Positions 38-58,700 of a DNA stretch of 64,000 nt are shown piece after piece (within the stretch, counting starts at the first letter, position 1; each line of letters opens with the position of its first letter). A program made the position numbers and the translations under genes. The DNA is from Sinohyriopsis cumingii (Eukaryota; Mollusca; Bivalvia; Unionida; Unionidae), in contig JAPYKE020000505.1 in the NCBI GenBank assembly GCA_028554795.2, forward strand, positions 124,001 to 188,000, given 5' to 3'. Below the pieces are notes generated by a model. That model searched no databases. It was not told where the DNA came from and was given only the letters and a program-made list of their open reading frames with translations.

Positions 38-74
38 ATTGGTGGTACTTTATAACTACATCTCAAGTCATTTG

Positions 75-4070: not shown

Positions 4071-6808
4071 ATTCGTGGTACTTTATAACTACATCCCAAG
4101 TGAACTGATTCGTGGTACTTTATAACTACATCTCAAGTCATTTGATTCGTGGTACTTTAGGACTATATCCCAAGTGAACTGATTCGTGGTACTTTATAAC
4201 TACATCTCAAGTCATTTGATTCGTGGTACTTTATAACTACATCTCAAGTCATTTGATTCGTGGTACTTTATAACTACATCTCAAGTCATTTGATTCGTGG
4301 TACTTTATAACTACATCCCAAGTGAAGTGATTCGTGGTACTTTATAACTACATCTCAAGTCATTTGATTCGTGGTACTTTATAACTACATCTCAAGTCAT
4401 TTGATTCATGGTACTTTAGGACTATATCCCAAGTGAACTGATTCGTGGTACTTTATAACTACATCTCAAGTCATTTGATTCGTGGTACTTTATAACTACA
4501 TCTCAAGTCATTTGATTCATGGTACTTTAGGACTATATCCCAAGTGAACTGATTCGTGGTACTTTATAACTACATCTCAAGTCATTTGATTCGTGGTACT
4601 TTATAACTACATCTCAAGTCATTTGATTCGTGGTACTTTATAACTACATCTCAAGTCATTTGATTCATGGTACTTTAGGACTATATCCCAAGTGAACTGA
4701 TTCGTGGTACTTTATAACTACATCTCAAGTCATTTGATTCGTGGTACTTTATAACTACATCCCAAGTGAACTGATTCGTGGTACTTTATAACTACATCTC
4801 AAGTCATTTGATTCGTGGTACTTTATAACTACATCCCAAGTGAACTGATTCGTGGTACTTTATAACTACATCTCAAGTCATTTGATTCAAGGTACTTTAG
4901 GACTATATCCCAAGTGAACTGATTCGTGGTACTTTATAACTACATCTCAAGTCATTTGATTCGTGGTACTTTATAACTACATCTCAAGTCATTTGATTCG
5001 TGGTACTTTATAACTACATCCCAAGTGAACTGATTCGTGGTACTTTATAACTACATCTCAAGTCATTTGATTCATGGTACTTTAGGACTATATCCCAAGT
5101 GAACTGATTCGTGGTACTTTATAACTACATCTCAAGTCATTTGATTCCAGGTACTTTATAACTACATCTCAAGTCATTTGATTCGTGGTACTTTATAACT
5201 ACATCTCAAGTCATTTGATTCGTGGTACTTTATAACTACATCCCAAGTGAACTGATTCGTGGTACTTTATAACTACATCTCAAGTCATTTGATTCGTCGT
5301 ACTTTATAACTACATCTCAAGTCATTTGATTCATGGTACTTTATAACTACATCTCAAGTCATTTGATTCGTGGTACTTTATAACTACATCTCAAGTCATT
5401 TGATTCGTGGTACTTTATAACTACATCTCAAGTCATTTGATTCGTGGTACTTTATAACTACATCTCAAGTCATTTGATTCGTGGTACTTTATAACTACAT
5501 CCCAAGTGAACTGATTCGTGGTACTTTATAACTACATCTCAAGTCATTTGATTCGTGGTACTTTATAACTACATCTCAAGTCATTTGATTCATGGTACTT
5601 TAGGACTATATCCCAAGTGAACTGATTCGTGGTACTTTATAACTACATCTCAAGTCATTTGATTCGTGGTACTTTATAACTACATCTCAAGTCATTTGAT
5701 TCATGGTACTTTAGGACTATATCCCAAGTGAACTGATTCGTGGTACTTTATAACTACATCTCAAGTCATTTGATTCGTGGTACTTTATAACTACATCTCA
5801 AGTCATTTGATTCGTGGTACTTTATAACTACATCTCAAGTCATTTGATTCATGGTACTTTAGGACTATATCCCAAGTGAACTGATTCGTGGTACTTTATA
5901 ACTACATCTCAAGTCATTTGATTCGTGGTACTTTATAACTACATCTCAAGTCATTTGATTCGTGGTACTTTATAACTACATCTCAAGTCATTTGATTCAT
6001 GGTACTTTAGGACTATGTCCCAAGTGAACTGATTCGTGGTACTTTATAACTACATCTCAAGTCATTTGATTCGTGGTACTTTATAACTACATCTCAAGTC
6101 ATTTGATTCGTGGTACTTTATAAATACATCTCAAGTCATTTGATTCGTGGGACTTTATAACTACATCTCAAGTCATTTGATTCGTGGTACTTTATAACTA
6201 CATCTCAAGTCATTTGATTCATGGTACTTTATAACTACATCTCAAGTCATTTGATTCGTGGTACTTTATAACTACATCTCAAGTCATTTGATTCGTGGTA
6301 CTTTATAACTACATCTCAAGTCATTTGATTCGTGGTACTTTATAACTACATCTCAAGTCATTTGATTCGTGGTACTTTATAACTACATCCCAAGTGAACT
6401 GATTCGTGGTACTTTATAACTACATCTCAAGTCATTTGATTCGTGGTACTTTATAATTACATCTCAAGTCATTTGATTCATGGTACTTTAGGACTATATC
6501 CCAAGTGAACTGATTCGTGGTACTTTATAACTACATCTCAAGTCATTTGATTCATGGTACTTTATAACTACATCTCAAGTCATTTGATTCGTGGTACTTT
6601 ATAACTACATCCCAAGTGAACTGATTCGTGGTACTTTATAACTACATCCCAAGTGAACTGATTCGTGGTACTTTATAACTACATCTCAAGTCATTTGATT
6701 CGTGGTACTTTATAACTACATCTCAAGTCATTTGATTCGTGGTACTTTATAACTACATCTCAAGTCATTTGATTCGTGGTACTTTATAACTACATCTCAA
6801 GTCATTTG

Positions 6809-9800
6809 ATTCATGGTACTTTATAACTACATCTCAAGTCATTTGATTCGTGGTACTTTATAACTACATCCCAAGTGAACTGATTCGTGGTACTTTATAA
6901 CTACATCTCAAGTCATTTGATTCATGGTACTTTAGGACTATATCCCAAGTGAACTGATTCGTGGTACTTTATAACTACATCTCAAGTCATTTGATTCATG
7001 GTACTTTAGGACTATATCCCAAGTGAACTCATTCGTGGTACTTTATAACTACATCTCAAGTCATTTGATTCGTGGTACTTTATAACTACATCTCAAGTCA
7101 TTTGATTCGTGGTACTTTATAACTACATCCCAAGTGAACTGATTCGTGGTACTTTATAACTACATCTCAAGTCATTTGATTCGTGGTACTTTATAACTAC
7201 ATCCCAAGTGAACTGATTCATGGTACTTTATAACTACATCTCAAGTCATTTGATTCATGGTACTTTAGGACTATATCCCAAGTGAACTGATTCGTGGTAC
7301 TTTATAACTACATCTCAAGTCATTTGATTCATGGTACTTTAGGACTATATCCCAAGTGAACTGATTCGTGGTACTTTATAACTACATCTCAAGTCATTTG
7401 ATTCGTGGTACTTTATAACCACATCTCAAGTCATTTGATTCGTGGTACTTTATAACTACATCCCAAGTGAACTGATTCGTGGTACTTTATAACTACATCT
7501 CAAGTCATTTGATTCGTGGTACTTTATAACTACATCCCAAGTGAACTGATTCGTGGTACTTTATAACTACATCTCAAGTCATTTGATTCATGGTACTTTA
7601 GGACTATATCCCAAGTGAACTGATTCGTGGTACTTTATAACTACATCTCAAGTCATTTGATTCATGGTACTTTAGGACTATATCCCATGTGAACTGATTC
7701 GTGGTACTTTATAACTACATCTCAAGTCATTTGATTCGTGGTACTTTATAACTACATCTCAAGTCATTTGATTCGTGGTACTTTATAACTACATCTCAAG
7801 TCATTTGATTCGTGGTACTTTATAACTACATCTCAAGTCATTTGATTCATGGTACTTTAGGACTACATCCCAAGTGAACTGATTCGTGGTACTTTATAAC
7901 TACATCTCAAGTCATTTGATTCATGGTACTTTAGGACTATATCCCAAGTGAACTGATTCGTGGTACTTTATAACTACATCTCAAGTCATTTGATTCGTGG
8001 TACTTTATAACTACATCTCAAGTCATTTGATTCATGGTACTTTAGGACTATATCCCAAGTGAACTGATTCGTGGTACTTTATAACTACATCTCAAGTCAT
8101 TTGATTCGTGGTACTTTATAACTACATCTCAAGTCATTTGATTCGTGGTACTTTATAACTACATCTCAAGTCATTTGATTCATGGTACTTTAGGACTATA
8201 TCCCAAGTGAACTGATTCGTGGTACTTTATAACTACATCTCAAGTCATTTGATTCATGGTACTTTATAACTACATCTCAAGTCATTTGATTCATGGTACT
8301 TTAGGACTATATCCCAAGTGAACTGATTCGTGGTACTTTATAACTACATCTCAAGTCATTTGATTCGTGGTACTTTATAACTACATCTCAAGTCATTTGA
8401 TTCATGGTACTTTAGGACTATATCCCAAGTGAACTGATTCGTGGTACTTTATAACTACATCTCAAGTCAATTGATTCATGGTACTTTAGGACTATATCCC
8501 AAGTGAACTGATTCGTGGTACTTTATAACAACATCTCAAGTCATTTGATTCGTGGTACTTTATAACTACATCTCAAGTCATTTGATTCATGGTACTTTAG
8601 GACTATATCCCAAGTGAACTGATTCGTGGTACTTTATAACTACATCTCAAGTCATTTGATTCGTGGTACTTTATAACTACATCTCAAGTCATTTGATTCA
8701 TGGTACTTTAGGACTATATCCCAAGTGAACTGATTCGTGGTACTTTATAACTACATCTCAAGTCATTTGATTCATCGTACTTTAGGACTATATCCCAAGT
8801 GAACTGATTCGTGGTACTTTATAACTACATCTCAAGTCATTTGATTCGTGGTACTTTATAACTACATCTCAAGTCATTTGATTCGTGGTACTTTATAACT
8901 ACATCTCAAGTCATTTGATTCGTGGTACTTTATAACTACATCTCAAGTCATTTGATTCATGGTACTTTAGGACAATATCCCAAGTGAACTGATTCGTGGT
9001 ACTTTATAACTACATCTCAAGTCATTTGATTCGTGGTACTTTATAACTACATCTCAAGTCATTTGATTCATGGTACTTTAGGACTATATCCCAAGTGAAC
9101 TGATTCGTGGTACTTTATAACTACATCTCAAGTCATTTGATTCGTGGTACTTTATAACTACATCTCAAGTCATTTGATTCGTGGTACTTTATAACTACAT
9201 CCCAAGTGAACTGATTCGTTGTACTTTATAACTACATCTCAAGTCATTTGATTCATGGTACTTTATAACTACATCTCAAGTCATTTGATTCATGGTACTT
9301 TATAACTACATCTCAAGTCATTTGATTCGTGGTACTTTATAACTACATCCCAAGTGAACTGATTCGTGGTACTTTATAACTACATCTCAAGTCATTTGAT
9401 TCATGGTACTTTAGGACTATATCCCAAGTGAACTGATTCGTGGTACTTTATAACTACATCTCAAGTCATTTGATTCATGGTACTTTAGGACTATATCCCA
9501 AGTGAACTGATTCGTGGTACTTTATAACTACATCTCAAGTCATTTGATTCGTGGTACTTTATAACTACATCTCAAGTCATTTGATTCGTGGTACTTTATA
9601 ACTACATCTCAAGTCATTTGATTCATGGTACTTTATAACTACATCTCAAGTCATTTGATTCATGGTACTTTAGGACTATATCTCAAGTCATTTGATTCGT
9701 GGTACTTTATAACTACATCCCAAGTGAACTGATTCGTGGTACTTTATAACTACATCTCAAGTCATTTGATTCGTGGTACTTTAGGACTATATCCCAAGTG

Positions 9801-10286
9801 AACTGATTCGTGGTACTTTATAACTACATCTCAAGTCATTTGATTCGTGGTACTTTATAACTACATCCCAAGTGAACTGATTCGTGGTACTTTATAACTA
9901 CATCTCAAGTCATTTGATTCGTGGTACTTTATAACTACATCCCAAGTGAAGTGATTCGTGGTACTTTATAACTACATCTCAAGTCATTTGATTCGTGGTA
10001 CTTTATAACTACATCTCAAGTCATTTGATTCATGGTACTTTAGGACTATATCCCAAGTGAACTGATTCGTGGTACTTTATAACTACATCTCAAGTCATTT
10101 GATTCGTGGTACTTTATAACTACATCTCAAGTCATTTGATTCGTGGTACTTTATAACTACATCTCAAGTCATTTGATTCATGGTACTTTAGGACTATATC
10201 CCAAGTGAACTGATTCGTGGTACTTTATAACTACATCTCAAGTCATTTGATTCGTGGTACTTTATAGCTACATCTCAAGTCATTTG
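6809..10286 (+). repeat. 94-monomer module, copy 1 in S2
   Basis: 3,478 bp. It starts with D, B, A, C, A, C(GAACTC) and ends at a TATAGCTAC monomer (10250), after which the same opening order restarts. Shared module markers, counted from the GAACTC monomer, are TAACCAC at +11, ATCGTAC at +48, GACAAT at +53 and GAAGTG at +79. Its copy-1 signature is ACAACATC at +41 (8511) with no TAATTAC at +2 and no TACGAC at +18. It also holds a private TTCGTTG monomer at 9214. Confidence 0.86.
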
Positions 10287-13200
10287 ATTCATGGTACTTT
10301 ATAACTACATCTCAAGTCATTTGATTCGTGGTACTTTATAACTACATCCCAAGTGAACTGATTCGTGGTACTTTATAACTACATCTCAAGTCATTTGATT
10401 CATGGTACTTTAGGACTATATCCCAAGTGAACTGATTCGTGGTACTTTATAACTACATCTCAAGTCATTTGATTCATGGTACTTTAGGACTATATCCCAA
10501 GTGAACTCATTCGTGGTACTTTATAACTACATCTCAAGTCATTTGATTCGTGGTACTTTATAATTACATCTCAAGTAAATTGATTCGTGGTACTTTATAA
10601 CTACATCCCAAGTGAACTGATTCGTGGTACTTTATAACTACATCTCAAGTCATTTGATTCGTGGTACTTTATAACTACATCCCAAGTGAACTGATTCATG
10701 GTACTTTATAACTACATCTCAAGTCATTTGATTCATGGTACTTTAGGACTATATCCCAAGTGAACTGATTCGTGGTACTTTATAACTACATCTCAAGTCA
10801 TTTGATTCATGGTACTTTAGGACTATATCCCAAGTGAACTGATTCGTGGTACTTTATAACTACATCTCAAGTCATTTGATTCGTGGTACTTTATAACCAC
10901 ATCTCAAGTCATTTGATTCGTGGTACTTTATAACTACATCCCAAGTGAACTGATTCGTGGTACTTTATAACTACATCTCAAGTCATTTGATTCGTGGTAC
11001 TTTATAACTACATCCCAAGTGAACTGATTCGTGGTACTTTATAACTACATCTCAAGTCATTTGATTCATGGTACTTTAGGACTATATCCCAAGTGAACTG
11101 ATTCGTGGTACTTTATAACTACATCTCAAGTCATTTGATTCATGGTACTTTACGACTATATCCCATGTGAACTGATTCGTGGTACTTTATAACTACATCT
11201 CAAGTCATTTGATTCGTGGTACTTTATAACTACATCTCAAGTCATTTGATTCGTGGTACTTTATAACTACATCTCAAGTCATTTGATTCGTGGTACTTTA
11301 TAACTACATCTCAAGTCATTTGATTCATGGTACTTTAGGACTACATCCCAAGTGAACTGATTCGTGGTACTTTATAACTACATCTCAAGTCATTTGATTC
11401 ATGGTACTTTATAACTACATCTCAAGTCATTTGATTCATGGTACTTTAGGACTATATCCCAAGTGAACTGATTCGTGGTACTTTATAACTACATCTCAAG
11501 TCATTTGATTCATGGTACTTTAGGACTATATCCCAAGTGAACTGATTCGTGGTACTTTATAACTACATCTCAAGTCATTTGATTCGTGGTACTTTATAAC
11601 TACATCTCAAGTCATTTGATTCGTGGTACTTTATAACTACATCTCAAGTCATTTGATTCATGGTACTTTAGGACTATATCCCAAGTGAACTGATTCGTGG
11701 TACTTTATAACTACATCTCAAGTCATTTGATTCATGGTACTTTATAACTACATCTCAAGTCATTTGATTCATGGTACTTTAGGACTATATCCCAAGTGAA
11801 CTGATTCGTGGTACTTTATAACTACATCTCAAGTCATTTGATTCGTGGTACTTTATAACTACATCTCAAGTCATTTGATTCATGGTACTTTAGGACTATA
11901 TCCCAAGTGAACTGATTCGTGGTACTTTATAACTACATCTCAAGTCATTTGATTCATGGTACTTTAGGACTATATCCCAAGTGAACTTATTCGTGGTACT
12001 TTATAACTACATCTCAAGTCATTTGATTCGTGGTACTTTATAACTACATCTCAAGTCATTTGATTCATGGTACTTTAGGACTATATCCCAAGTGAACTGA
12101 TTCGTGGTACTTTATAACTACATCTCAAGTCATTTGATTCGTGGTACTTTATAACTACATCTCAAGTCATTTGATTCATGGTACTTTAGGACTATATCCC
12201 AAGTGAACTGATTCGTGGTACTTTATAACTACATCTCAAGTCATTTGATTCATCGTACTTTAGGACTATATCCCAAGTGAACTGATTCGTGGTACTTTAT
12301 AACTACATCTCAAGTCATTTGATTCGTGGTACTTTATAACTACATCTCAAGTCATTTGATTCGTGGTACTTTATAACTACATCTCAAGTCATTTGATTCG
12401 TGGTACTTTATAACTACATCTCAAGTCATTTGATTCATGGTACTTTAGGACAATATCCCAAGTGAACTGATTCGTGGTACTTTATAACTACATCTCAAGT
12501 CATTTGATTCGTGGTACTTTATAACTACATCTCAAGTCATTTGATTCATGGTACTTTAGGACTATATCCCAAGTGAACTGATTCGTGGTACTTTATAACT
12601 ACATCTCAAGTCATTTGATTCGTGGTACTTTATAACTACATCTCAAGTCATTTGATTCGTGGTACTTTATAACTACATCCCAAGTGAACTGATTCGTGGT
12701 ACTTTATAACTACATCTCAAGTCATTTGATTCATGGTACTTTATAACTACATCTCAAGTCATTTGATTCATGGTACTTTATAACTACATCTCAAGTCATT
12801 TGATTCGTGGTACTTTATAACTACATCCCAAGTGAACTGATTCGTGGTACTTTATAACTACATCTCAAGTCATTTGATTCATGGTACTTTAGGACTATAT
12901 CCCAAATGAACTGATTCGTGGTACTTTATAACTACATCTCAAGTCATTTGATTCATGGTACTTTAGGACTATATCCCAAGTGAACTGATTCGTGGTACTT
13001 TATAACTACATCTCAAGTCATTTGATTCGTGGTACTTTATAACTACATCTCAAGTCATTTGATTCGTGGTACTTTATAACTACATCTCAAGTCATTTGAT
13101 TCGTGGTACTTTATAACTACATCTCAAGTCATTTGATTCATGGTACTTTAGGACTATATCTCAAGTCATTTGATTCGTCCTACTTTATAACTACATCCCA

Positions 13201-13727
13201 AGTGAACTGATTCGTGGTACTTTATAACTACATCTCAAGTCATTTGATTCGTGGTACTTTAGGACTATATCCCAAGTGAACTGATTCGTGGTACTTTATA
13301 ACTACATCTCAAGTCATTTGATTCGTGGTACTTTATAACTACATCCCAAGTGAACTGATTCGTGGTACTTTATAACTACATCTCAAGTCATTTGATTCGT
13401 GGTACTTTATAACTACATCCCAAGTGAAGTGATTCGTGGTACTTTATAACTACATCTCAAGTCATTTGATTCGTGGTACTTTATAACTACATCTCAAGTC
13501 ATTTGATTCATGGTACTTTAGGACTATATCCCAAGTGAACTGATTCGTGGTACTTTATAACTACATCTCAAGTCATTTGATTCGTGGTACTTTATAACTA
13601 CATCTCAAGTCATTTGATTCGTGGTACTTTATAACTACATCTCAAGTCATTTGATTCATGGTACTTTAGGACTATATCCCAAGTGAACTGATTCGTGGTA
13701 CTTTATAACTACATCTCAAGTCATTTG
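10287..13727 (+). repeat. 94-monomer module, copy 2 in S2
   Basis: Tandem second copy, offset by 94 monomers at every shared marker (GAACTC 189 to 283, GACAAT 242 to 336, GAAGTG 268 to 362 in monomer index). Homology with copy 1 stops after 93 monomers; the 94th is type B here instead of the TATAGCTAC form. The copy-2 signature is TAATTAC at +2 (10546) and TACGACTATATCCCATG at +18 (11138). A private AAGTAAATTG occurs near 10576. Confidence 0.86.
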
Positions 13728-16391
13728 ATTCGTGGTACTTTATAACTACATCCCAAGTGAACTGATTCGTGGTACTTTATAACTACATCTCAAGTCATTT
13801 GATTCGTGGTACTTTATAACTACATCCCAAGTGAACTGATTCGTGGTACTTTATAACTACATCTCAAGTCATTTGATTCAAGGTACTTTAGGACTATATC
13901 CCAAGTGAACTGATTCGTGGTACTTTATAACTACATCTCAAGTCATTTGATTCGTGGTACTTTATAACTACATCTCAAGTCATTTGATTCGTGGTACTTT
14001 ATAACTACATCCCAAGTGAACTGATTCGTGGTACTTTATAACTACATCTCAAGTCATTTGATTCATGGTACTTTAGGACTATATCCCAAGTGAACTGATT
14101 CGTGGTACTTTATAACTACATCTCAAGTCATTTGATTCCAGGTACTTTATAACTACATCTCAAGTCATTTGATTCGTGGTACTTTATAACTACATCTCAA
14201 GTCATTTGATTCGTGGTACTTTATAACTACATCCCAAGTGAACTGATTCGTGGTACTTTATAACTACATCTCAAGTCATTTGATTCGTCGTACTTTATAA
14301 CTACATCTCAAGTCATTTGATTCATGGTACTTTATAACTACATCTCAAGTCATTTGATTCGTGGTACTTTATAACTACATCTCAAGTCATTTGATTCGTG
14401 GTACTTTATAACTACATCTCAAGTCATTTGATTCGTGGTACTTTATAACTACATCTCAAGTCATTTGATTCGTGGTACTTTATAACTACATCCCAAGTGA
14501 ACTGATTCGTGGTACTTTATAACTACATCTCAAGTCATTTGATTCGTGGTACTTTATAACTACATCTCAAGTCATTTGATTCATGGTACTTTAGGACTAT
14601 ATCCCAAGTGAACTGATTCGTGGTACTTTATAACTACATCTCAAGTCATTTGATTCGTGGTACTTTATAACTACATCTCAAGTCATTTGATTCATGGTAC
14701 TTTAGGACTATATCCCAAGTGAACTGATTCGTGGTACTTTATAACTACATCTCAAGTCATTTGATTTGTGGTACTTTATAACTACATCTCAAGTCATTTG
14801 ATTCGTGGTACTTTATAACTACATCTCAAGTCATTTGATTCATGGTACTTTAGGACTATATCCCAAGTGAACTGATTCGTGGTACTTTATAACTACATCT
14901 CAAGTCATTTGATTCGTGGTACTTTATAACTACATCTCAAGTCATTTGATTCGTGGTACTTTATAACTACATCTCAAGTCATTTGATTCATGGTACTTTA
15001 GGACTATGTCCCAAGTGAACTGATTCGTGGTACTTTATAACTACATCTCAAGTCATTTGATTCGTGGTACTTTATAACTACATCTCAAGTCATTTGATTC
15101 GTGGTACTTTATAAATACATCTCAAGTCATTTGATTCGTGGGACTTTATAACTACATCTCAAGTCATTTGATTCGTGGTACTTTATAACTACATCTCAAG
15201 TCATTTGATTCATGGTACTTTATAACTACATCTCAAGTCATTTGATTCGTGGTACTTTATAACTACATCTCAAGTCATTTGATTCGTGGTACTTTATAAC
15301 TACATCTCAAGTCATTTGATTCGTGGTACTTTATAACTACATCTCAAGTCATTTGATTCGTGGTACTTTATAACTACATCCCAAGTGAACTGATTCGTGG
15401 TACTTTATAACTACATCTCAAGTCATTTGATTCGTGGTACTTTATAATTACATCTCAAGTCATTTGATTCATGGTACTTTAGGACTATATCCCAAGTGAA
15501 CTGATTCGTGGTACTTTATAACTACATCTCAAGTCATTTGATTCATGGTACTTTATAACTACATCTCAAGTCATTTGATTCGTGGTACTTTATAACTACA
15601 TCCCAAGTGAACTGATTCGTGGTACTTTATAACTACATCCCAGGTGAACTGATTCGTGGTACTTTATAACTACATCTCAAGTCATTTGATTCGTGGTACT
15701 TTATAACTACATCTCAAGTCATTTGATTCGTGGTACTTTATAACTACATCTCAAGTCATTTGATTCGTGGTACTTTATAACTACATCTCAAGTCATTTGA
15801 TTCATGGTACTTTATAACTACATCTCAAGTCATTTGATTCGTGGTACTTTATAACTACATCCCAAGTGAACTGATTCGTGGTACTTTATAACTACATCTC
15901 AAGTCATTTGATTCATGGTACTTTAGGACTATATCCCAAGTGAACTGATTCGTGGTACTTTATAACTACATCTCAAGTCATTTGATTCATGGTACTTTAG
16001 GACTATATCCCAAGTGAACTCATTCGTGGTACTTTATAACTACATCTCAAGTCATTTGATTCGTGGTACTTTATAACTACATCTCAAGTCATTTGATTCG
16101 TGGTACTTTATAACTACATCCCAAGTGAACTGATTCGTGGTACTTTATAACTACATCTCAAGTCATTTGATTCGTGGTACTTTATAACTACATCCCAAGT
16201 GAACTGATTCATGGTACTTTATAACTACATCTCAAGTCATTTGATTCGTGGTACTTTATAACTACATCTCAAGTCATTTGATTCGTGGTACTTTATAACT
16301 ACATCTCAAGTCATTTGATTCGTGGTACTTTATAACTACATCTCAAGTCATTTGATTCGTGGTACTTTATAACTACATCTCAAGTCATTTG

Positions 16392-18611
16392 ATTCATGGT
16401 ACTTTAGGACTATATCTCAAGTCATTTGATTCGTGGTACTTTATAACTACATCCCAAGTGAACTGATTCGTGGTACTTTATAACTACATCTCAAGTCATT
16501 TGATTCGTGGTACTTTAGGACTATATCCCAAGTGAACTGATTCGTGGTACTTTATAACTACATCTCAAGTCATTTGATTCGTGGTACTTTATAACTACAT
16601 CCCAAGTGAACTGATTCGTGGTACTTTATAACTACATCTCAAGTCATTTGATTCGTGGTACTTTATAACTACATCCCAAGTGAAGTGATTCGTGGTACTT
16701 TATAACTACATCTCAAGTCATTTGATTCGTGGTACTTTATAACTAAATCTCAAGTCATTTGATTCATGGTACTTTAGGACTATATCCCAAGTGAACTGAT
16801 TCGTGGTACTTTATAACTACATCTCAAGTCATTTGATTCGTGGTACTTTATAACTACATCTCAAGTCATTTGATTCGTGGTACTTTATAACTACATCTCA
16901 AGTCATTTGATTCATGGTACTTTAGGACTATATCCCAAGTGAACTGATTCGTGGTACTTTATAACTACATCTCAAGTCATTTGATTCGTGGTACTTTATA
17001 ACTACATCCCAAGTGAACTGATTCGTGGTACTTTATAACTACATCTCAAGTCATTTGATTCGTGGTACTTTATAACTACATCCCAAGTGAACTGATTCGT
17101 GGTACTTTATAACTACATCTCAGGTCATTTGATTCAAGGTACTTTAGGACTATATCCCAAGTGAACTGATTCGTGGTACTTTATAACTACATCTCAAGTC
17201 ATTTGATTCGTGGTACTTTATAACTACATCTCAAGTCATTTGATTCGTGGTACTTTATAACTACATCCCAAGTGAACTGATTCGTGGTACTTTATAACTA
17301 CATCTCAAGTCATTTGATTCATGGTACTTTAGGACTATATCCCAAGTGAACTGATTCGTGGTACTTTATAACTACATCTCAAGTCATTTGATTCCAGGTA
17401 CTTTATAACTACATCTCAAGTCATTTGATTCGTGGTACTTTATAACTACATCTCAAGTCATTTGATTCGTGGTACTTTATAACTACATCCCAAGTGAACT
17501 GATTCGTGGTACTTTATAACTACATCTCAAGTCATTTGATTCGTCGTACTTTATAACTACATCTCAAGTCATTTGATTCATGGTACTTTATAATTACATC
17601 TCAAGTCATTTGATTCGTGGTACTTTATAACTACATCTCAAGTCATTTGATTCGTGGTACTTTATAACTACATCTCAAGTCATTTGATTCGTGGTACTTT
17701 ATAACTACATCTCAAGTCATTTGATTCGTGGTACTTTATAACTACATCCCAAGTGAACTGATTCGTGGTACTTTATAACTGCATCTCAAGTCATTTGATT
17801 CGTGGTACTTTATAACTACATCTCAAGTCATTTGATTCATGGTACTTTAGGACTATATCCCAAGTGAACTGATTCGTGGTACTTTATAACTACATCTCAA
17901 GTCATTTGATTCGTGGTACTTTATAACTACATCTCAAGTCATTTGATTCATGGTACTTTAGGACTATATCCCAAGTGAACTGATTCGTGGTACTTTATAA
18001 CTACATCTCAAGTCATTTGATTCGTGGTACTTTATAACTACATCTCAAGTCATTTGATTCGTGGTACTTTATAACTACATCCCAAGTGAAGTGATTCGTG
18101 GTACTTTATAACTACATCTCAAGTCATTTGATTCGTGGTACTTTATAACTACATCTCAAGTCATTTGATTCATGGTACTTTAGGACTATATCCCAAGTGA
18201 ACTGATTCGTGGTACTTTATAACTACATCTCAAGTCATTTGATTCGTGGTACTTTATAACTACATCTCAAGTCATTTGATTCATGGTACTTTAGGACTAT
18301 ATCCCAAGTGAACTGATTCGTGGTACTTTATAACTACATCTCAAGTCATTTGATTCGTGGTACTTTATAACTACATCTCAAGTCATTTGATTCGTGGTAC
18401 TTTATAACTACATCTCAAGTCATTTGATTCATGGTACTTTAGGACTATATCCCAAGTGAACTGATTCGTGGTACTTTATAACTACATCTCAAGTCATTTG
18501 ATTCGTGGTACTTTATAACTACATCTCAAGTCATTTGATTCGTGGTACTTTATAACTACATCTCAAGTCATTTGATTCGTGGTACTTTATAACTACATCT
18601 CAAGTCATTTG
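16392..18611 (+). repeat. 60-monomer repeat, copy 1 in S3
   Basis: 2,220 bp from one C-left/A-right monomer (16392) to the next (18612). It includes GAAGTG (monomer ending 16687), the CAGGTCATTTG/TTCAAGG pair (17132), TTCCAGG (17391), TTCGTCG (17539), ACTGCATC (17761) and a second GAAGTG ending at 18093. The second copy lacks CAGGTCATTTG and ACTGCATC. Confidence 0.8.
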
Positions 18612-41100: not shown

Positions 41101-41625
41101 TCATTTGATTCGTGGTACTTTAGGACTATATCCCAAGTGAACTGATTCGTGGTACTTTATAACTACATCTCAAGTCATTTGATTCGTGGTACTTTATAAC
41201 TACATCCCAAGTGAACTGATTCGTGGTACTTTATAACTACATCTCAAGTCATTTGATTCGTGGTACTTTATAACTACATCCCAAGTGAAGTGATTCGTGG
41301 TACTTTATAACTACATCTCAAGTCATTTGATTCGTGGTACTTTATAACTACATCTCAAGTCATTTGATTCATGGTACTTTAGGACTATATCCCAAGTGAA
41401 CTGATTCGTGGTACTTTATAACTACATCTCAAGTCATTTGATTCGTGGTACTTTATAACTACATCTCAAGTCATTTGATTCGTGGTACTTTATAACTACA
41501 TCTCAAGTCATTTGATTCATGGTACTTTAGGACTATATCCCAAGTGAACTGATTCGTGGTACTTTATAACTACATCTCAAGTCATTTGATTCGTGGTACT
41601 TTATAACTACATCTCAAGTCATTTG
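38148..41625 (+). repeat. 94-monomer module, copy 1 in S6
   Basis: Opens with D at 38148; GAACTC monomer ends at 38369, ATCGTAC 40109, GACAAT 40294. It lacks TAATTAC at +2, as expected of a copy 1, but also lacks ACAACATC at +41 and the terminal TATAGCTAC. It may thus represent the state before those two changes arose. Confidence 0.84.
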
Positions 41626-46324: not shown

Positions 46325-48803
46325 ATTCGTGGTACTTTATAACTACATCTCAAGTCATTTGATTCGTGGTACTTTATAACTACATCTCAAGTCATTTGAT
46401 TCATGGTACTTTAGGACTATATCCCAAGTGAACTGATTCGTGGTACTTTATAACTACATCTCAAGTCATTTGATTCGTGGTACTTTATAACTACATCTCA
46501 AGTCATTTGATTCATGGTACTTTAGGACTATATCCCAAGTGAACTGATTCGTGGTACTTTATAACTACATCTCAAGTCATTTGATTCGTGGTACTTTATA
46601 ACTACATCTCAAGTCATTTGATTCGTGGTACTTTATAACTACATCTCAAGTCATTTGATTCATGGTACTTTAGGACTATATCCCAAGTGAACTGATTCGT
46701 GGTACTTTATAACTACATCTCAAGTCATTTGATTCGTGGTACTTTATAACTACATCCCAAGTGAACTGATTCGTGGTACTTTATAACTACATCTCAAGTC
46801 ATTTGATTCGTGGTACTTTATAACTACATCCCAAGTGAACTGATTCGTGGTACTTTATAACTACATCTCAAGTCATTTGATTCAAGGTACTTTAGGACTA
46901 TATCCCAAGTGAACTGATTCGTGGTACTTTATAACTACATCTCAAGTCATTTGATTCGTGGTACTTTATAACTACATCTCAAGTCATTTGATTCGTGGTA
47001 CTTTATAACTACATCCCAAGTGAACTGATTCGTGGTACTTTATAACTACATCTCAAGTCATTTGATTCATGGTACTTTAGGACTATATCCCAAGTGAACT
47101 GATTCGTGGTACTTTATAACTACATCTCAAGTCATTTGATTCCAGGTACTTTATAACTACATCTCAAGTCATTTGATTCGTGGTACTTTATAACTACATC
47201 TCAAGTCATTTGATTCGTGGTACTTTATAACTACATCCCAAGTGAACTGATTCGTGGTACTTTATAACTACATCTCAAGTCATTTGATTCGTCGTACTTT
47301 ATAACTACATCTCAAGTCATTTGATTCATGGTACTTTATAACTACATCTCAAGTCATTTGATTCGTGGTACTTTATAACTACATCTCAAGTCATTTGATT
47401 CGTGGTACTTTATAACTACATCTCAAGTCATTTGATTCGTGGTACTTTATAACTACATCTCAAGTCATTTGATTCGTGGTACTTTATAACTACATCCCAA
47501 GTGAACTGATTCGTGGTACTTTATAACTACATCTCAAGTCATTTGATTCGTGGTACTTTATAACTACATCTCAAGTCATTTGATTCATGGTACTTTAGGA
47601 CTATATCCCAAGTGAACTGATTCGTGGTACTTTATAACTACATCTCAAGTCATTTGATTCGTGGTACTTTATAACTACATCTCAAGTCATTTGATTCATG
47701 GTACTTTAGGACTATATCCCAAGTGAACTGATTCGTGGTACTTTATAACTACATCTCAAGTCATTTGATTCGTGGTACTTTATAACTACATCTCAAGTCA
47801 TTTGATTCGTGGTACTTTATAACTACATCTCAAGTCATTTGATTCATGGTACTTTAGGACTATATCCCAAGTGAACTGATTCGTGGTACTTTATAACTAC
47901 ATCTCAAGTCATTTGATTCGTGGTACTTTATAACTACATCTCAAGTCATTTGATTCGTGGTACTTTATAACTACATCTCAAGTCATTTGATTCATGGTAC
48001 TTTAGGACTATGTCCCAAGTGAACTGATTCGTGGTACTTTATAACTACATCTCAAGTCATTTGATTCGTGGTACTTTATAACTACATCTCAAGTCATTTG
48101 ATTCGTGGTACTTTATAAATACATCTCAAGTCATTTGATTCGTGGGACTTTATAACTACATCTCAAGTCATTTGATTCGTGGTACTTTATAACTACATCT
48201 CAAGTCATTTGATTCATGGTACTTTATAACTACATCTCAAGTCATTTGATTCGTGGTACTTTATAACTACATCTCAAGTCATTTGATTCGTGGTACTTTA
48301 TAACTACATCTCAAGTCATTTGATTCGTGGTACTTTATAACTACATCTCAAGTCATTTGATTCGTGGTACTTTATAACTACATCCCAAGTGAACTGATTC
48401 GTGGTACTTTATAACTACATCTCAAGTCATTTGATTCGTGGTACTTTATAATTACATCTCAAGTCATTTGATTCATGGTACTTTAGGACTATATCCCAAG
48501 TGAACTGATTCGTGGTACTTTATAACTACATCTCAAGTCATTTGATTCATGGTACTTTATAACTACATCTCAAGTCATTTGATTCGTGGTACTTTATAAC
48601 TACATCCCAAGTGAACTGATTCGTGGTACTTTATAACTACATCCCAAGTGAACTGATTCGTGGTACTTTATAACTACATCTCAAGTCATTTGATTCGTGG
48701 TACTTTATAACTACATCTCAAGTCATTTGATTCGTGGTACTTTATAACTACATCTCAAGTCATTTGATTCGTGGTACTTTATAACTACATCTCAAGTCAT
48801 TTG

Positions 48804-51800
48804 ATTCATGGTACTTTATAACTACATCTCAAGTCATTTGATTCGTGGTACTTTATAACTACATCCCAAGTGAACTGATTCGTGGTACTTTATAACTACA
48901 TCTCAAGTCATTTGATTCATGGTACTTTAGGACTATATCCCAAGTGAACTGATTCGTGGTACTTTATAACTACATCTCAAGTCATTTGATTCATGGTACT
49001 TTAGGACTATATCCCAAGTGAACTCATTCGTGGTACTTTATAACTACATCTCAAGTCATTTGATTCGTGGTACTTTATAACTACATCTCAAGTCATTTGA
49101 TTCGTGGTACTTTATAACTACATCCCAAGTGAACTGATTCGTGGTACTTTATAACTACATCTCAAGTCATTTGATTCGTGGTACTTTATAACTACATCCC
49201 AAGTGAACTGATTCATGGTACTTTATAACTACATCTCAAGTCATTTGATTCATGGTACTTTAGGACTATATCCCAAGTGAACTGATTCGTGGTACTTTAT
49301 AACTACATCTCAAGTCATTTGATTCATGGTACTTTAGGACTATATCCCAAGTGAACTGATTCGTGGTACTTTATAACTACATCTCAAGTCATTTGATTCG
49401 TGGTACTTTATAACCACATCTCAAGTCATTTGATTCGTGGTACTTTATAACTACATCCCAAGTGAACTGATTCGTGGTACTTTATAACTACATCTCAAGT
49501 CATTTGATTCGTGGTACTTTATAACTACATCCCAAGTGAACTGATTCGTGGTACTTTATAACTACATCTCAAGTCATTTGATTCATGGTACTTTAGGACT
49601 ATATCCCAAGTGAACTGATTCGTGGTACTTTATAACTACATCTAAAGTCATTTGATTCATGGTACTTTAGGACTATATCCCATGTGAACTGATTCGTGGT
49701 ACTTTATAACTACATCTCAAGTCATTTGATTCGTGGTACTTTATAACTACATCTCAAGTCATTTGATTCGTGGTACTTTATAACTACATCTCAAGTCATT
49801 TGATTCGTGGTACTTTATAACTACATCTCAAGTCATTTGATTCATGGTACTTTAGGACTACATCCCAAGTGAACTGATTCGTGGTACTTTATAACTACAT
49901 CTCAAGTCATTTGATTCATGGTACTTTATAACTACATCTCAAGTCATTTGATTCATGGTACTTTAGGACTATATCCCAAGTGAACTGATTCGTGGTACTT
50001 TATAACTACATCTCAAGTCATTTGATTCATGGTACTTTAGGACTATATCCCAAGTGAACTGATTCGTGGTACTTTATAACTACATCTCAAGTCATTTGAT
50101 TCGTGGTACTTTATAACTACATCTCAAGTCATTTGATTCGTGGTACTTTATAACTACATCTCAAGTCATTTGATTCATGGTACTTTAGGACTATATCCCA
50201 AGTGAACTGATTCGTGGTACTTTATAACTACATCTCAAGTCATTTGATTCATGGTACTTTATAACTACATCTCAAGTCATTTGATTCATGGTACTTTAGG
50301 ACTATATCCCAAGTGAACTGATTCGTGGTACTTTATAACTACATCTCAAGTCATTTGATTCGTGGTACTTTATAACTACATCTCAAGTCATTTGATTCAT
50401 GGTACTTTAGGACTATATCCCAAGTGAACTGATTCGTGGTACTTTATAACTACATCTCAAGTCATTTGATTCATGGTACTTTAGGACTATATCCCAAGTG
50501 AACAGATTCGTGGTACTTTATAACAACATCTCAAGTCATTTGATTCGTGGTACTTTATAACTACATCTCAAGTCATTTGATTCATGGTACTTTAGGACTA
50601 TATCCCAAGTGAACTGATTCGTGGTACTTTATAACTACATCTCAAGTCATTTGATTCGTGGTACTTTATAACTACATCTCAAGTCATTTGATTCATGGTA
50701 CTTTAGGACTATATCCCAAGTGAACTGATTCGTGGTACTTTATAACTACATCTCAAGTCATTTGATTCATCGTACTTTAGGACTATATCCCAAGTGAACT
50801 GATTCGTGGTACTTTATAACTACATCTCAAGTCATTTGATTCGTGGTACTTTATAACTACATCTCAAGTCATTTGATTCGTGGTACTTTATAACTACATC
50901 TCAAGTCATTTGATTCGTGGTACTTTATAACTACATCTCAAGTCATTTGATTCATGGTACTTTAGGACAATATCCCAAGTGAACTGATTCGTGGTACTTT
51001 ATAACTACATCTCAAGTCATTTGATTCGTGGTACTTTATAACTACATCTCAAGTCATTTGATTCATGGTACTTTAGGACTATATCCCAAGTGAACTGATT
51101 CGTGGTACTTTATAACTACATCTCAAGTCATTTGATTCGTGGTACTTTATAACTACATCTCAAGTCATTTGATTCGTGGTACTTTATAACTACATCCCAA
51201 GTGAACTGATTCGTGGTACTTTATAACTACATCTCAAGTCATTTGATTCATGGTACTTTATAACTACATCTCAAGTCATTTGATTCATGGTACTTTATAA
51301 CTACATCTCAAGTCATTTGATTCGTGGTACTTTATAACTACATCCCAAGTGAACTGATTCGTGGTACTTTATAACTACATCTCAAGTCATTTGATTCATG
51401 GTACTTTAGGACTATATCCCAAGTGAACTGATTCGTGGTACTTTATAACTACATCTCAAGTCATTTGATTCATGGTACTTTAGGACTATATCCCAAGTGA
51501 ACTGATTCGTGGTACTTTATAACTACATCTCAAGTCATTTGATTCGTGGTACTTTATAACTACATCTCAAGTCATTTGATTCGTGGTACTTTATAACTAC
51601 ATCTCAAGTCATTTGATTCATGGTACTTTATAACTACATCTCAAGTCATTTGATTCATGGTACTTTAGGACTATATCTCAAGTCATTTGATTCGTGGTAC
51701 TTTATAACTACATCCCAAGTGAACTGATTCGTGGTACTTTATAACTACATCTCAAGTCATTTGATTCGTGGTACTTTAGGACTATATCCCAAGTGAACTG

Positions 51801-52281
51801 ATTCGTGGTACTTTATAACTACATCTCAAGTCATTTGATTCGTGGTACTTTATAACTACATCCCAAGTGAACTGATTCGTGGTACTTTATAACTACATCT
51901 CAAGTCATTTGATTCGTGGTACTTTATAACTACATCCCAAGTGAAGTGATTCGTGGTACTTTATAACTACATCTCAAGTCATTTGATTCGTGGTACTTTA
52001 TAACTACATCTCAAGTCATTTGATTCATGGTACTTTAGGACTATATCCCAAGTGAACTGATTCGTGGTACTTTATAACTACATCTCAAGTCATTTGATTC
52101 GTGGTACTTTATAACTACATCTCAAGTCATTTGATTCGTGGTACTTTATAACTACATCTCAAGTCATTTGATTCATGGTACTTTAGGACTATATCCCAAG
52201 TGAACTGATTCGTGGTACTTTATAACTACATCTCAAGTCATTTGATTCGTGGTACTTTATAGCTACATCTCAAGTCATTTG
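48804..52281 (+). repeat. 94-monomer module, copy 1 in S7
   Basis: Opens with D at 48804; GAACTC monomer ends at 49025, ACAACATC 50506, ATCGTAC 50765, GACAAT 50950; the final monomer is TATAGCTAC at 52245. All markers match S2 copy 1 at +1,135 monomers, except that the TTCGTTG variant of S2 copy 1 is absent at the matching place (51209). Confidence 0.85.
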
Positions 52282-55200
52282 ATTCATGGTACTTTATAAC
52301 TACATCTCAAGTCATTTGATTCGTGGTACTTTATAACTACATCCCAAGTGAACTGATTCGTGGTACTTTATAACTACATCTCAAGTCATTTGATTCATGG
52401 TACTTTAGGACTATATCCCAAGTGAACTGATTCGTGGTACTTTATAACTACATCTCAAGTCATTTGATTCATGGTACTTTAGGACTATATCCCAAGTGAA
52501 CTCATTCGTGGTACTTTATAACTACATCTCAAGTCATTTGATTCGTGGTACTTTATAATTACATCTCAAGTCATTTGATTCGTGGTACTTTATAACTACA
52601 TCCCAAGTGAACTGATTCGTGGTACTTTATAACTACATCTCAAGTCATTTGATTCGTGGTACTTTATAACTACATCCCAAGTGAACTGATTCATGGTACT
52701 TTATAACTACATCTCAAGTCATTTGATTCATGGTACTTTAGGACTATATCCCAAGTGAACTGATTCGTGGTACTTTATAACTACATCTCAAGTCATTTGA
52801 TTCATGGTACTTTAGGACTATATCCCAAGTGAACTGATTCGTGGTACTTTATAACTACATCTCAAGTCATTTGATTCGTGGTACTTTATAACCACATCTC
52901 AAGTCATTTGATTCGTGGTACTTTATAACTACATCCCAAGTGAACTGATTCGTGGTACTTTATAACTACATCTCAAGTCATTTGATTCGTGGTACTTTAT
53001 AACTACATCCCAAGTGAACTGATTCGTGGTACTTTATAACTACATCTCAAGTCATTTGATTCATGGTACTTTAGGACTATATCCCAAGTGAACTGATTCG
53101 TGGTACTTTATAACTACATCTCAAGTCATTTGATTCATGGTACTTTACGACTATATCCCATGTGAACTGATTCGTGGTACTTTATAACTACATCTCAAGT
53201 CATTTGATTCGTGGTACTTTATAACTACATCTCAAGTCATTTGATTCGTGGTACTTTATAACTACATCTCAAGTCATTTGATTCGTGGTACTTTATAACT
53301 ACATCTCAAGTCATTTGATTCATGGTACTTTAGGACTACATCCCAAGTGAACTGATTCGTGGTACTTTATAACTACATCTCAAGTCATTTGATTCATGGT
53401 ACTTTATAACTACATCTCAAGTCATTTGATTCATGGTACTTTAGGACTATATCCCAAGTGAACTGATTCGTGGTACTTTATAACTACATCTCAAGTCATT
53501 TGATTCATGGTACTTTAGGACTATATCCCAAGTGAACTGATTCGTGGTACTTTATAACTACATCTCAAGTCATTTGATTCGTGGTACTTTATAACTACAT
53601 CTCAAGTCATTTGATTCGTGGTACTTTATAACTACATCTCAAGTCATTTGATTCATGGTACTTTAGGACTATATCCCAAGTGAACTGATTCGTGGTACTT
53701 TATAACTACATCTCAAGTCATTTGATTCATGGTACTTTATAACTACATCTCAAGTCATTTGATTCATGGTACTTTAGGACTATATCCCAAGTGAACTGAT
53801 TCGTGGTACTTTATAACTACATCTCAAGTCATTTGATTCGTGGTACTTTATAACTACATCTCAAGTCATTTGATTCATGGTACTTTAGGACTATATCCCA
53901 AGTGAACTGATTCGTGGTACTTTATAACTACATCTCAAGTCATTTGATTCATGGTACTTTAGGACTATATCCCAAGTGAACTGATTCGTGGTACTTTATA
54001 ACTACATCTCAAGTCATTTGATTCGTGGTACTTTATAACTACATCTCAAGTCATTTGATTCATGGTACTTTAGGACTATATCCCAAGTGAACTGATTCGT
54101 GGTACTTTATAACTACATCTCAAGTCATTTGATTCGTGGTACTTTATAACTACATCTCAAGTCATTTGATTCATGGTACTTTAGGACTATATCCCAAGTG
54201 AACTGATTCGTGGTACTTTATAACTACATCTCAAGTCATTTGATTCATCGTACTTTAGGACTATATCCCAAGTGAACTGATTCGTGGTACTTTATAACTA
54301 CATCTCAAGTCATTTGATTCGTGGTACTTTATAACTACATCTCAAGTCATTTGATTCGTGGTACTTTATAACTACATCTCAAGTCATTTGATTCGTGGTA
54401 CTTTATAACTCCATCTCAAGTCATTTGATTCATGGTACTTTAGGACAATATCCCAAGTGAACTGATTCGTGGTACTTTATAACTACATCTCAAGTCATTT
54501 GATTCGTGGTACTTTATAACTACATCTCAAGTCATTTGATTCATGGTACTTTAGGACTATATCCCAAGTGAACTGATTCGTGGTACTTTATAACTACATC
54601 TCAAGTCATTTGATTCGTGGTACTTTATAACTACATCTCAAGTCATTTGATTCGTGGTACTTTATAACTACATCCCAAGTGAACTGATTCGTTGTACTTT
54701 ATAACTACATCTCAAGTCATTTGATTCATGGTACTTTATAACTACATCTCAAGTCATTTGATTCATGGTACTTTATAACTACATCTCAAGTCATTTGATT
54801 CGTGGTACTTTATAACTACATCCCAAGTGAACTGATTCGTGGTACTTTATAACTACATCTCAAGTCATTTGATTCATGGTACTTTAGGACTATATCCCAA
54901 ATGAACTGATTCGTGGTACTTTATAACTACATCTCAAGTCATTTGATTCATGGTACTTTAGGACTATATCCCAAGTGAACTGATTCGTGGAACTTTATAA
55001 CTACATCTCAAGTCATTTGATTCGTGGTACTTTATAACTACATCTCAAGTCATTTGATTCGTGGTACTTTATAACTACATCTCAAGTCATTTGATTCGTG
55101 GTACTTTATAACTACATCTCAAGTCATTTGATTCATGGTACTTTAGGACTATATCTCAAGTCATTTGATTCGTCCTACTTTATAACTACATCCCAAGTGA

Positions 55201-55722
55201 ACTGATTCGTGGTACTTTATAACTACATCTCAAGTCATTTGATTCGTGGTACTTTAGGACTATATCCCAAGTGAACTGATTCGTGGTACTTTATAACTAC
55301 ATCTCAAGTCATTTGATTCGTGGTACTTTATAACTACATCCCAAGTGAACTGATTCGTGGTACTTTATAACTACATCTCAAGTCATTTGATTCGTGGTAC
55401 TTTATAACTACATCCCAAGTGAAGTGATTCGTGGTACTTTATAACTACATCTCAAGTCATTTGATTCGTGGTACTTTATAACTACATCTCAAGTCATTTG
55501 ATTCATGGTACTTTAGGACTATATCCCAAGTGAACTGATTCGTGGTACTTTATAACTACATCTCAAGTCATTTGATTCGTGGTACTTTATAACTACATCT
55601 CAAGTCATTTGATTCGTGGTACTTTATAACTACATCTCAAGTCATTTGATTCATGGTACTTTAGGACTATATCCCAAGTGAACTGATTCGTGGTACTTTA
55701 TAACTACATCTCAAGTCATTTG
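52282..55722 (+). repeat. 94-monomer module, copy 2 in S7
   Basis: GAACTC monomer ends at 52503, TAATTAC 52541, TACGAC 53133, ATCGTAC 54243, ACTCCATC 54391, GACAAT 54428, TTCGTCC 55168. It carries TTCGTTG at 54687, seven monomers after GACAAT, the same relative place as the TTCGTTG in S2 copy 1 (9214). A private GTGGAAC lies near 54990. Confidence 0.85.
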
Positions 55723-58700
55723 ATTCGTGGTACTTTATAACTACATCCCAAGTGAACTGATTCGTGGTACTTTATAACTACATCTCAAGTCATTTGATTC
55801 GTGGTACTTTATAACTACATCCCAAGTGAACTGATTCGTGGTACTTTATAACTACATCTCAAGTCATTTGATTCAAGGTACTTTAGGACTATATCCCAAG
55901 TGAACTGATTCGTGGTACTTTATAACTACATCTCAAGTCATTTGATTCGTGGTACTTTATAACTACATCTCAAGTCATTTGATTCGTGGTACTTTATAAC
56001 TACATCCCAAGTGAACTGATTCGTGGTACTTTATAACTACATCTCAAGTCATTTGATTCATGGTACTTTAGGACTATATCCCAAGTGAACTGATTCGTGG
56101 TACTTTATAACTACATCTCAAGTCATTTGATTCCAGGTACTTTATAACTACATCTCAAGTCATTTGATTCGTGGTACTTTATAACTACATCTCAAGTCAT
56201 TTGATTCGTGGTACTTTATAACTACATCCCAAGTGAACTGATTCGTGGTACTTTATAACTACATCTCAAGTCATTTGATTCGTCGTACTTTATAACTACA
56301 TCTCAAGTCATTTGATTCATGGTACTTTATAACTACATCTCAAGTCATTTGATTCGTGGTACTTTATAACTACATCTCAAGTCATTTGATTCGTGGTACT
56401 TTATAACTACATCTCAAGTCATTTGATTCGTGGTACTTTATAACTACATCTCAAGTCATTTGATTCGTGGTACTTTATAACTACATCCCAAGTGAACTGA
56501 TTCGTGGTACTTTATAACTACATCTCAAGTCATTTGATTCGTGGTACTTTATAACTACATCTCAAGTCATTTGATTCATGGTACTTTAGGACTATATCCC
56601 AAGTGAACTGATTCGTGGTACTTTATAACTACATCTCAAGTCATTTGATTCGTGGTACTTTATAACTACATCTCAAGTCATTTGATTCATGGTACTTTAG
56701 GACTATATCCCAAGTGAACTGATTCGTGGTACTTTATAACTACATCTCAAGTCATTTGATTCGTGGTACTTTATAACTACATCTCAAGTCATTTGATTCG
56801 TGGTACTTTATAACTACATCTCAAGTCATTTGATTCATGGTACTTTAGGACTATATCCCAAGTGAACTGATTCGTGGTACTTTATAACTACATCTCAAGT
56901 CATTTGATTCGTGGTACTTTATAACTACATCTCAAGTCATTTGATTCGTGGTACTTTATAACTACATCTCAAGTCATTTGATTCATGGTACTTTAGGACT
57001 ATGTCCCAAGTGAACTGATTCGTGGTACTTTATAACTACATCTCAAGTCATTTGATTCGTGGTACTTTATAACTACATCTCAAGTCATTTGATTCGTGGT
57101 ACTTTATAAATACATCTCAAGTCATTTGATTCGTGGGACTTTATAACTACATCTCAAGTCATTTGATTCGTGGTACTTTATAACTACATCTCAAGTCATT
57201 TGATTCATGGTACTTTATAACTACATCTCAAGTCATTTGATTCGTGGTACTTTATAACTACATCTCAAGTCATTTGATTCGTGGTACTTTATAACTACAT
57301 CTCAAGTCATTTGATTCGTGGTACTTTATAACTACATCTCAAGTCATTTGATTCGTGGTACTTTATAACTACATCCCAAGTGAACTGATTCGTGGTACTT
57401 TATAACTACATCTCAAGTCATTTGATTCGTGGTACTTTATAATTACATCTCAAGTCATTTGATTCATGGTACTTTAGGACTATATCCCAAGTGAACTGAT
57501 TCGTGGTACTTTATAACTACATCTCAAGTCATTTGATTCATGGTACTTTATAACTACATCTCAAGTCATTTGATTCGTGGTACTTTATAACTACATCCCA
57601 AGTGAACTGATTCGTGGTACTTTATAACTACATCCCAAGTGAACTGATTCGTGGTACTTTATAACTACATCTCAAGTCATTTGATTCGTGGTACTTTATA
57701 ACTACATCTCAAGTCATTTGATTCGTGGTACTTTATAACTACATCTCAAGTCATTTGATTCGTGGTACTTTATAACTACATCTCAAGTCATTTGATTCAT
57801 GGTACTTTATAACTACATCTCAAGTCATTTGATTCGTGGTACTTTATAACTACATCCCAAGTGAACTGATTCGTGGTACTTTATAACTACATCTCAAGTC
57901 ATTTGATTCATGGTACTTTAGGACTATATCCCAAGTGAACTGATTCGTGGTACTTTATAACTACATCTCAAGTCATTTGATTCATGGTACTTTAGGACTA
58001 TATCCCAAGTGAACTCATTCGTGGTACTTTATAACTACATCTCAAGTCATTTGATTCGTGGTACTTTATAACTACATCTCAAGTCATTTGATTCGTGGTA
58101 CTTTATAACTACATCCCAAGTGAACTGATTCGTGGTACTTTATAACTACATCTCAAGTCATTTGATTCGTGGTACTTTATAACTACATCCCAAGTGAACT
58201 GATTCATGGTACTTTATAACTACATCTCAAGTCATTTGATTCGTGGTACTTTATAACTACATCTCAAGTCATTTGATTCGTGGTACTTTATAACTACATC
58301 TCAAGTCATTTGATTCGTGGTACTTTATAACTACATCTCAAGTCATTTGATTCGTGGTACTTTATAACTACATCTCAAGTCATTTGATTCATGGTACTTT
58401 AGGACTATATCTCAAGTCATTTGATTCGTGGTACTTTATAACTACATCCCAAGTGAACTGATTCGTGGTACTTTATAACTACATCTCAAGTCATTTGATT
58501 CGTGGTACTTTATAACTACATCCCAAGTGAAGTGATTCGTGGTACTTTATAACTACATCTCAAGTCATTTGATTCGTGGTACTTTATAACTACATCTCAA
58601 GTCATTTGATTCATGGTACTTTAGGACTATATCCCAAGTGAACTGATTCGTGGTACTTTATAACTACATCTCAAGTCATTTGATTCGTGGTACTTTATAA

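Follow-up and report, generated by a model that had tools for sequence, protein, structure and literature searches.

Rare variants mark irregular multi-kilobase blocks, not a 243-monomer period, in a 37-bp satellite array of Sinohyriopsis cumingii

Introduction

A 64,000-nucleotide stretch of the genome of the bivalve Sinohyriopsis cumingii (NCBI GenBank assembly GCA_028554795.2, contig JAPYKE020000505.1, positions 124,001 to 188,000 of the forward strand), which will be called the window, consists of 37-bp satellite DNA in which a pair of rare variant monomers recurs seven times. The question raised by this locus is whether the recurring pair marks the period of a higher-order repeat (HOR) or something less regular. 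An earlier note on this DNA had proposed a HOR of 243 monomers (8,991 bp) marked by rare variants. A multi-kilobase structure marked by rare variants is indeed present, while 243 monomers is not its head-to-tail period: the 8,991 bp are the distance between two marker sites, M1 and M2, within a longer and irregular block. The reading that we favor, with a probability of roughly 0.8, is that of a young satellite stretch reshuffled by in-register unequal exchange or by an equivalent homology-guided block duplication. Either of the two would account for these data. Positions refer to the window unless the contig is named.

The leader marker and its spacing

The whole window is occupied by a single array.

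1..64000, forward strand: 37-bp satellite array in one register, with 1,729 whole monomers and 53 variants

All 1,692 of the GGTACTTTA words in the window fall in a single phase of 37, and the array is satellite DNA in the usual sense of a long head-to-tail array of one monomer. The leader monomer, ATTCGTGGTACTTTATAAATAC... (the TAAATAC variant), is directly followed at every copy by the GTGGGAC monomer. Each of the two variants has 7 copies among the 1,729 monomers, and the leaders stand exactly where the earlier note had placed them, at 6106, 15097, 20536, 29601, 37445, 48101, and 57092. The resulting intervals are, in order, 243, 147, 245, 212, 288, and 243 monomers. Over the contig, 15 leaders are irregularly spaced at 113 to 1,218 monomers, and no two neighbors are equal among the 14 intervals (269, 1218, 1039, 186, 243, 147, 245, 212, 288, 243, 208, 153, 315, and 113 monomers).

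The intervals have been compared by gapped alignment in monomer code, as were the units described below. The same internal order of markers had been reported for the 243, 245, and 243 intervals, and it is borne out by the alignment of 243 monomers in each pair at 95.1–96.3% identity, with a single 2-monomer gap separating either 243 interval from the 245 interval. The 288 interval, which had not been counted, is also homologous; 243 of its 288 monomers align (94.7–96.3%), and 45 additional monomers lie near its end. None of the homologous 243, 245, and 243 intervals adjoins another, and adjacent head-to-tail copies of a 243-monomer unit were not found.

When 1,499 monomer-register offsets are ranked by their fraction of identical 60-mers, the strongest of those looked up is 41,995 bp (rank 1, z 19.7). 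Offsets of 27,565, 3,478, 16,909, 14,430, and 10,656 bp occupy ranks 4 to 11 with z of 4.9–7.5 (4.9–6.9 for 10,656, 14,430, 16,909, and 3,478 alone). The offset of 8,991 bp is found at rank 19 (z 3.1), and 9,065 bp, for which a second diagonal had been predicted, is at background (rank 662, z 0.0). Among rare 60-mers (present 2–12 times; 252 offsets), 8,991 bp ranks 8 with 813 pairs and 9,065 bp ranks 42 with 239 pairs, so that some rare-word matches do exist at the latter. Block matches were accepted from a threshold of 120 bits, and the 128 listed score 120–809 bits; the controls, three permuted and three Markov-1 arrays searched on every seventh diagonal, reach at most 23.8 and 34.5 bits, respectively. 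The predicted diagonal at 8,991 bp appears in part, as two 76-monomer stretches above the threshold (4441-7252 and 46436-49247, each against its partner) that do not cover whole units. At 9,065 bp nothing exceeds 120 bits, and the homology extends over only 29 monomers around the leader.

Units from M1 to M1

The leader occurs twice in a block, at sites termed M1 and M2, and a 76-monomer module surrounds each site. Measured from one M1 to the next, the following units and modules are obtained.

6106..20535, forward strand: unit 1, 390 monomers (14,430 bp), with long arm 6106-15096 (243 monomers) and short arm 15097-20535 (147 monomers)
20536..37444, forward strand: unit 2, 457 monomers (16,909 bp), with long arm 20536-29600 (245 monomers) and short arm 29601-37444 (212 monomers)
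37445..48100, forward strand: unit 3, 288 monomers (10,656 bp), with the long arm shortened and lacking the second marker, and the short arm mostly missing
48101..64000 in the window, forward strand: unit 4, 451 monomers (16.7 kb), with long arm 48101-57091 (243 monomers) and short arm from 57092 (208 monomers); the next M1 starts 788 bp past the window end
4441..7252, forward strand: 76-monomer module that encloses M1, with a copy enclosing M2 at 13432-16243, 8,991 bp away and alike in 97.4% of monomers
46436-49247 and 55427-58238, forward strand: second pair of the 76-monomer module, identical copies 8,991 bp apart

The unit lengths recur in the spacing of variants other than the leader. A variant with exactly four copies (11138, 25568, 42477, and 53133) has intervals of 390, 457, and 288 monomers, and the same intervals separate the copies of a second variant at 7660, 22090, 38999, and 49655, which has a fifth copy at 815 in a partial block copy at the window start. 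Aligned with one another, units 1 and 2 are 94.8% identical over 386 monomers, units 1 and 3 92.6% over 284, units 1 and 4 95.3% over 385, units 2 and 3 94.4% over 287, units 2 and 4 96.6% over 435, and units 3 and 4 95.4% over 281. The log-odds scores of these pairs in monomer code are 460–879, against a maximum of 29 in 20 Markov-1 arrays; 12 other contig stretches used as a control score 26–288, some of them holding partial copies. The units differ by insertions and deletions of entire monomers, for instance 2, 18, 45, or 51 at a time.

Whether such blocks deserve the name of HOR depends on usage. Adjacent copies of a HOR are expected to be more than 95% alike; units 1–4 are adjacent and 92.6–96.6% alike, with lengths of 390, 457, 288, and 451 monomers. 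Clearly diverged monomers within the unit are not seen, as 960 of the 1,729 window monomers are identical in sequence to the most frequent one. The M1-to-M1 blocks can be called HORs loosely, under a wide usage, and not under the stricter features of a constant unit and diverged monomers.

Nested duplications and the junction in unit 3

Copies of unequal size lie within and across the units.

2998..16502, forward strand: 365-monomer block, first copy, repeated at an offset of 41,995 bp in 96.4% of monomers, with 27 base differences in 13,505
44993..58497, forward strand: 365-monomer block, second copy
6809..13727, forward strand: 94-monomer (3,478-bp) duplication nested within the long arm of unit 1, with counterparts in units 2 to 4 that start at 21239, 38074, and 48804
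44771..46435, forward strand: junction segment of 45 monomers near the end of unit 3, matching the left flank of unit 1 from 2776 onward in 91% of monomers

The 94-monomer duplication probably predates the copying of the units. For the 45 extra monomers of unit 3, an origin by tandem duplication has been rejected, since their best match is at 2776 and not beside them. Similarly, a first reading of the two 243 intervals as copies made by a 42-kb duplication, argued from the 41,995-bp offset alone, was given up; 41,995 bp is 390 + 457 + 288 monomers, the sum of three units, and the offset by itself proves nothing. The junction near 44,770 has the appearance expected where a tandem copy of units 1–3 begins and makes this duplication plausible again, though not proven; a block of ~42 kb comprising units 1–3 may have been copied in tandem at that point.

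Differences between copies are few. The six large ungapped pairs in the window differ at 8, 10, 25, and 27 of 8,362 bases, at 10 of 7,918, and at 27 of 13,505. The monomers belong to two main types, A and B, which differ at 8 of 37 positions, and 599 contig monomers are hybrids with a left part of A and a right part of B. Among 271 differing 37-bp monomer pairs, drawn from 21 segment pairs with a minimum length of 150 monomers that overlap and so do not give independent counts, 237 show a single base difference and 34 show several; in 14 of these 34, the differences are confined to A/B positions. On these counts, an exchange of A and B types has been rejected as the main source of the copy differences.

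A mechanism and its alternatives

In the window, insertions and deletions between block copies comprise whole monomers, the spacing is irregular, one unit is shortened and its junction can be seen, the copies have diverged little, and nested copies of 76, 94, 154, 226, and 365 monomers occur. The whole-monomer changes, the nesting, the unequal blocks, and the low divergence fit a homology-guided, in-register exchange with large shifts. Under such a mechanism the array would grow and reshuffle by homologous exchange with shifts of ~50 to several hundred monomers, and a rare variant would arise once and hitch-hike in every block copied afterward. Since the variant is carried within copied blocks, the spacing of a marker would record block lengths and not a fixed period. 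The tandem copying of units 1–3 as a ~42-kb block, with its junction near 44,770, would be one such event. Nothing here shows or requires that the higher-order arrangement has a function of its own.

Random block duplication and deletion has been simulated with parameters of our choosing, in 30 runs per mean block size, scoring widely spaced markers of 5–10 copies. With a mean block of 200 monomers, 23 of 30 runs gave a widely spaced marker and 12 a repeated interval, and none gave adjacent equal intervals; with a mean block of 400 these numbers were 24, 16, and 1 of 30, and with a mean block of 50 they were 1, 0, and 0 of 30. The outcome depends on the chosen parameters, and thus the simulation indicates that no special mechanism is needed and does not prove that this one acted.

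The young age of the stretch is suggested by variants that occur only once. Per 10 kb of contig, these number 0–4 at 130–210 kb and 6 at 120–130 kb, with 13 in the first 10 kb and 8 at 210–220 kb, so that most of the window falls within a young portion of the array.

Several observations weigh against the explanation by unequal exchange or equivalent block duplication in a young stretch. A first, milder simulation with lower turnover, which scored widely spaced markers of 4–12 copies, produced them in 5 of its 12 runs, and an interval was repeated in 2 of the 12. In a single register the proposed 42-kb duplication reaches no farther than 58.5 kb, which requires the assumption of later changes. 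At 70–120 kb of the contig, single variants are few as well (2–4 per 10 kb), and youth is accordingly not special to the window. The four consecutive M1-to-M1 units would also fit a genuine HOR of about 450 monomers that has been rearranged. Finally, an assembly error could be involved, though the longest exact run of monomers in the contig, 4,625 bp, can be spanned by long reads.

The strongest alternative is this true HOR of about 450 monomers (16.7–16.9 kb) with two marker sites, which the array would amplify as a whole and of which units 1 and 3 would be deletion derivatives. Units 2 and 4 (457 and 451 monomers) speak for it by their 96.6% identity over 435 monomers, as does the alignment of unit 1 with unit 4, and a fifth, rearranged copy within 64788-86285, past the window end, aligns with unit 4 over 319 monomers at 95.3%, interrupted by a 72-monomer insertion and by small gaps. 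Nevertheless, just four to five copies with four different lengths are found, and the rest of the contig does not follow the pattern, the upstream families being repeated at 15.8, 24.3, and 38.4 kb. We regard this HOR as possible and doubtful at the same time; it is compatible with unequal exchange as the driver. A related and slightly less likely suggestion is that a unit of ~450 monomers (16.7–16.9 kb) was amplified recently and that the two 76-monomer modules are exchange sites which change its length. If true, the unit would be far longer in base pairs than the HORs of alpha satellite.

Rolling-circle amplification of excised blocks followed by reinsertion would also yield in-register, multi-kilobase block copies, and adjacent near-perfect pairs do occur. 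This mechanism predicts runs of adjacent copies of equal length, whereas only pairs are observed and the 14 marker intervals contain no equal neighbors, which makes it improbable in comparison with unequal exchange. An artifact of assembly, in which satellite segments were wrongly joined or duplicated, might be expected of a contig that is wholly satellite and has both ends within the array; we consider it more improbable still, as the longest exact run is limited to the length given above, and the copies carry private variants and whole-monomer insertions and deletions and are hence not duplicates of one sequence. The strict 243-monomer HOR is scarcely credible despite its three homologous intervals and the place of 8,991 bp among the rare 60-mers, since as a head-to-tail period in this contig it is ruled out by the diagonals (background by overall 60-mers at 9,065 bp, and two 76-monomer stretches in place of whole units at 8,991 bp), by the order of intervals that never adjoin, and by the once-per-block variants, which lack a spacing of 243.

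The contig and the assembly

Contig JAPYKE020000505.1 (221,692 bp) is satellite from end to end, with 5,991 monomers, 5,971 of them exactly 37 bp, and both ends lie inside the array with no flanking unique sequence. Block matches over the threshold cover 82% of its monomers. Parts of the contig outside the window hold other block families with offsets of 5,438, 15,761, 24,308, and 38,441 bp and no constant period; the regions at 65–75, 90–100, and 105–115 kb have blocks in common, as do those at 20, 80, and 120 kb. Adjacent near-perfect pairs consist of 154 monomers at 5,661 bp, 150 at 5,438 bp, and 94 at 3,329 bp. The first of these, at contig 187160 and 192821 (window 63160 and beyond), agrees in 98.7% of monomers with 2 base differences in 5,698, and it is among the youngest events of the contig. 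At the other extreme, contig positions 1-10000 contain 9 of the 20 odd-length monomers of the contig and, as stated, the largest number of single variants of any 10-kb bin, as expected for an older edge of the array.

A DNA search of the assembly (2.90 Gb in 1,138 contigs) gave satellite matches in this contig only, among the matches listed, with 40 of 84 candidates scored. None of three monomer words occurs in reverse complement anywhere in the contig, and TTAGGG/CCCTAA words are likewise absent from it (0 copies each). Six short monomer words were found in 0 papers, and no title or abstract opening names this sequence, in the open-access literature of one library.

Several features of the monomer have been noted in addition. 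The core of the CENP-B box, NTTCGNNNNANNCGGGN, has 0 matches on either strand of the contig. A CENP-B-box-like core is represented in the A-type monomer by its left part, TTCGNNNNA, present 4,492 times in the contig, and the full form of that core with CGGG has 0 matches there. The A-type monomer has one CpG (TTCGTGG), at monomer positions 4-5. Among the 1,729 window monomers, 432 have A at position 5 and 1 has T at position 4; independent deamination would be expected to affect both equally, and the spread of the CA form thus seems to be due to copying.

Elsewhere in the same assembly, C15:123148763-123412356 holds eleven tyrosinase-domain matches spaced about 16 to 78 kb apart, ten of them in open frames of 537–577 amino acids; the assembly has 31 tyrosinase-domain matches overall. 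A globin reading frame of the assembly resembles neuroglobin.

Comparison with known satellites

The earlier note had also contrasted units of more than 200 monomers with the much shorter units of alpha satellite. Such units are exceptional in relation to alpha satellite and not in relation to satellites with short monomers, of which the GAATG satellite has HORs of hundreds of monomers. The HORs of alpha satellite are given as 2 to 34 monomers (PMC5615363), and a unit of 33 monomers is called the longest on human somatic chromosomes (PMC6718397). Human GAATG (satellite III) arrays of the Y chromosome have HORs of 3,360, 3,600, and 5,630 bp (PMC2588610, Table 1), which by our own division of these lengths correspond to about 670–1,130 pentamers. 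Several simple-sequence arrays are described in the same source as having a complex domain or higher-order organization.

The window provides a readable account of block-wise satellite turnover in a large genome, in which rare variants reveal block boundaries, the order of events, and relative ages at single-monomer resolution, and it could serve to test models of unequal exchange. The known picture of satellite organization is unchanged by it; the array is ordinary in kind, irregular block copying being the usual way in which such arrays evolve.

The closest parallels are each partial. Alpha satellite shares with this array the joint amplification of multi-monomer blocks, but its monomers of about 170 bp are diverged within the unit, whereas here the monomer is 37 bp (and so does not qualify as alpha satellite, with its monomer of about 171 bp), one or two main types prevail, and the unit length varies. 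The long terminal repeat (LTR) megasatellite HORs of human chromosomes 13, 18, and 21 have internal losses that have been ascribed to unequal crossing over (PMC2588610). They resemble the present units in having copies that miss internal pieces, and they differ in that their basic unit is a 3.5 kb LTR sequence and not a short satellite. Human satellite 1A has a 42-bp monomer and a 9-mer nested tandem repeat, with a higher unit of 378 bp (PMC9909926). The monomer length and the nested tandem repeats are similar here, but the present blocks are irregular and exceed that 378-bp unit tens of times in length. Human satellite III also combines a short monomer with multi-kilobase units of hundreds of monomers; its monomer is 5 bp and of another sequence, and the four units of the Sinohyriopsis array range in length from 10.7 to 16.9 kb.

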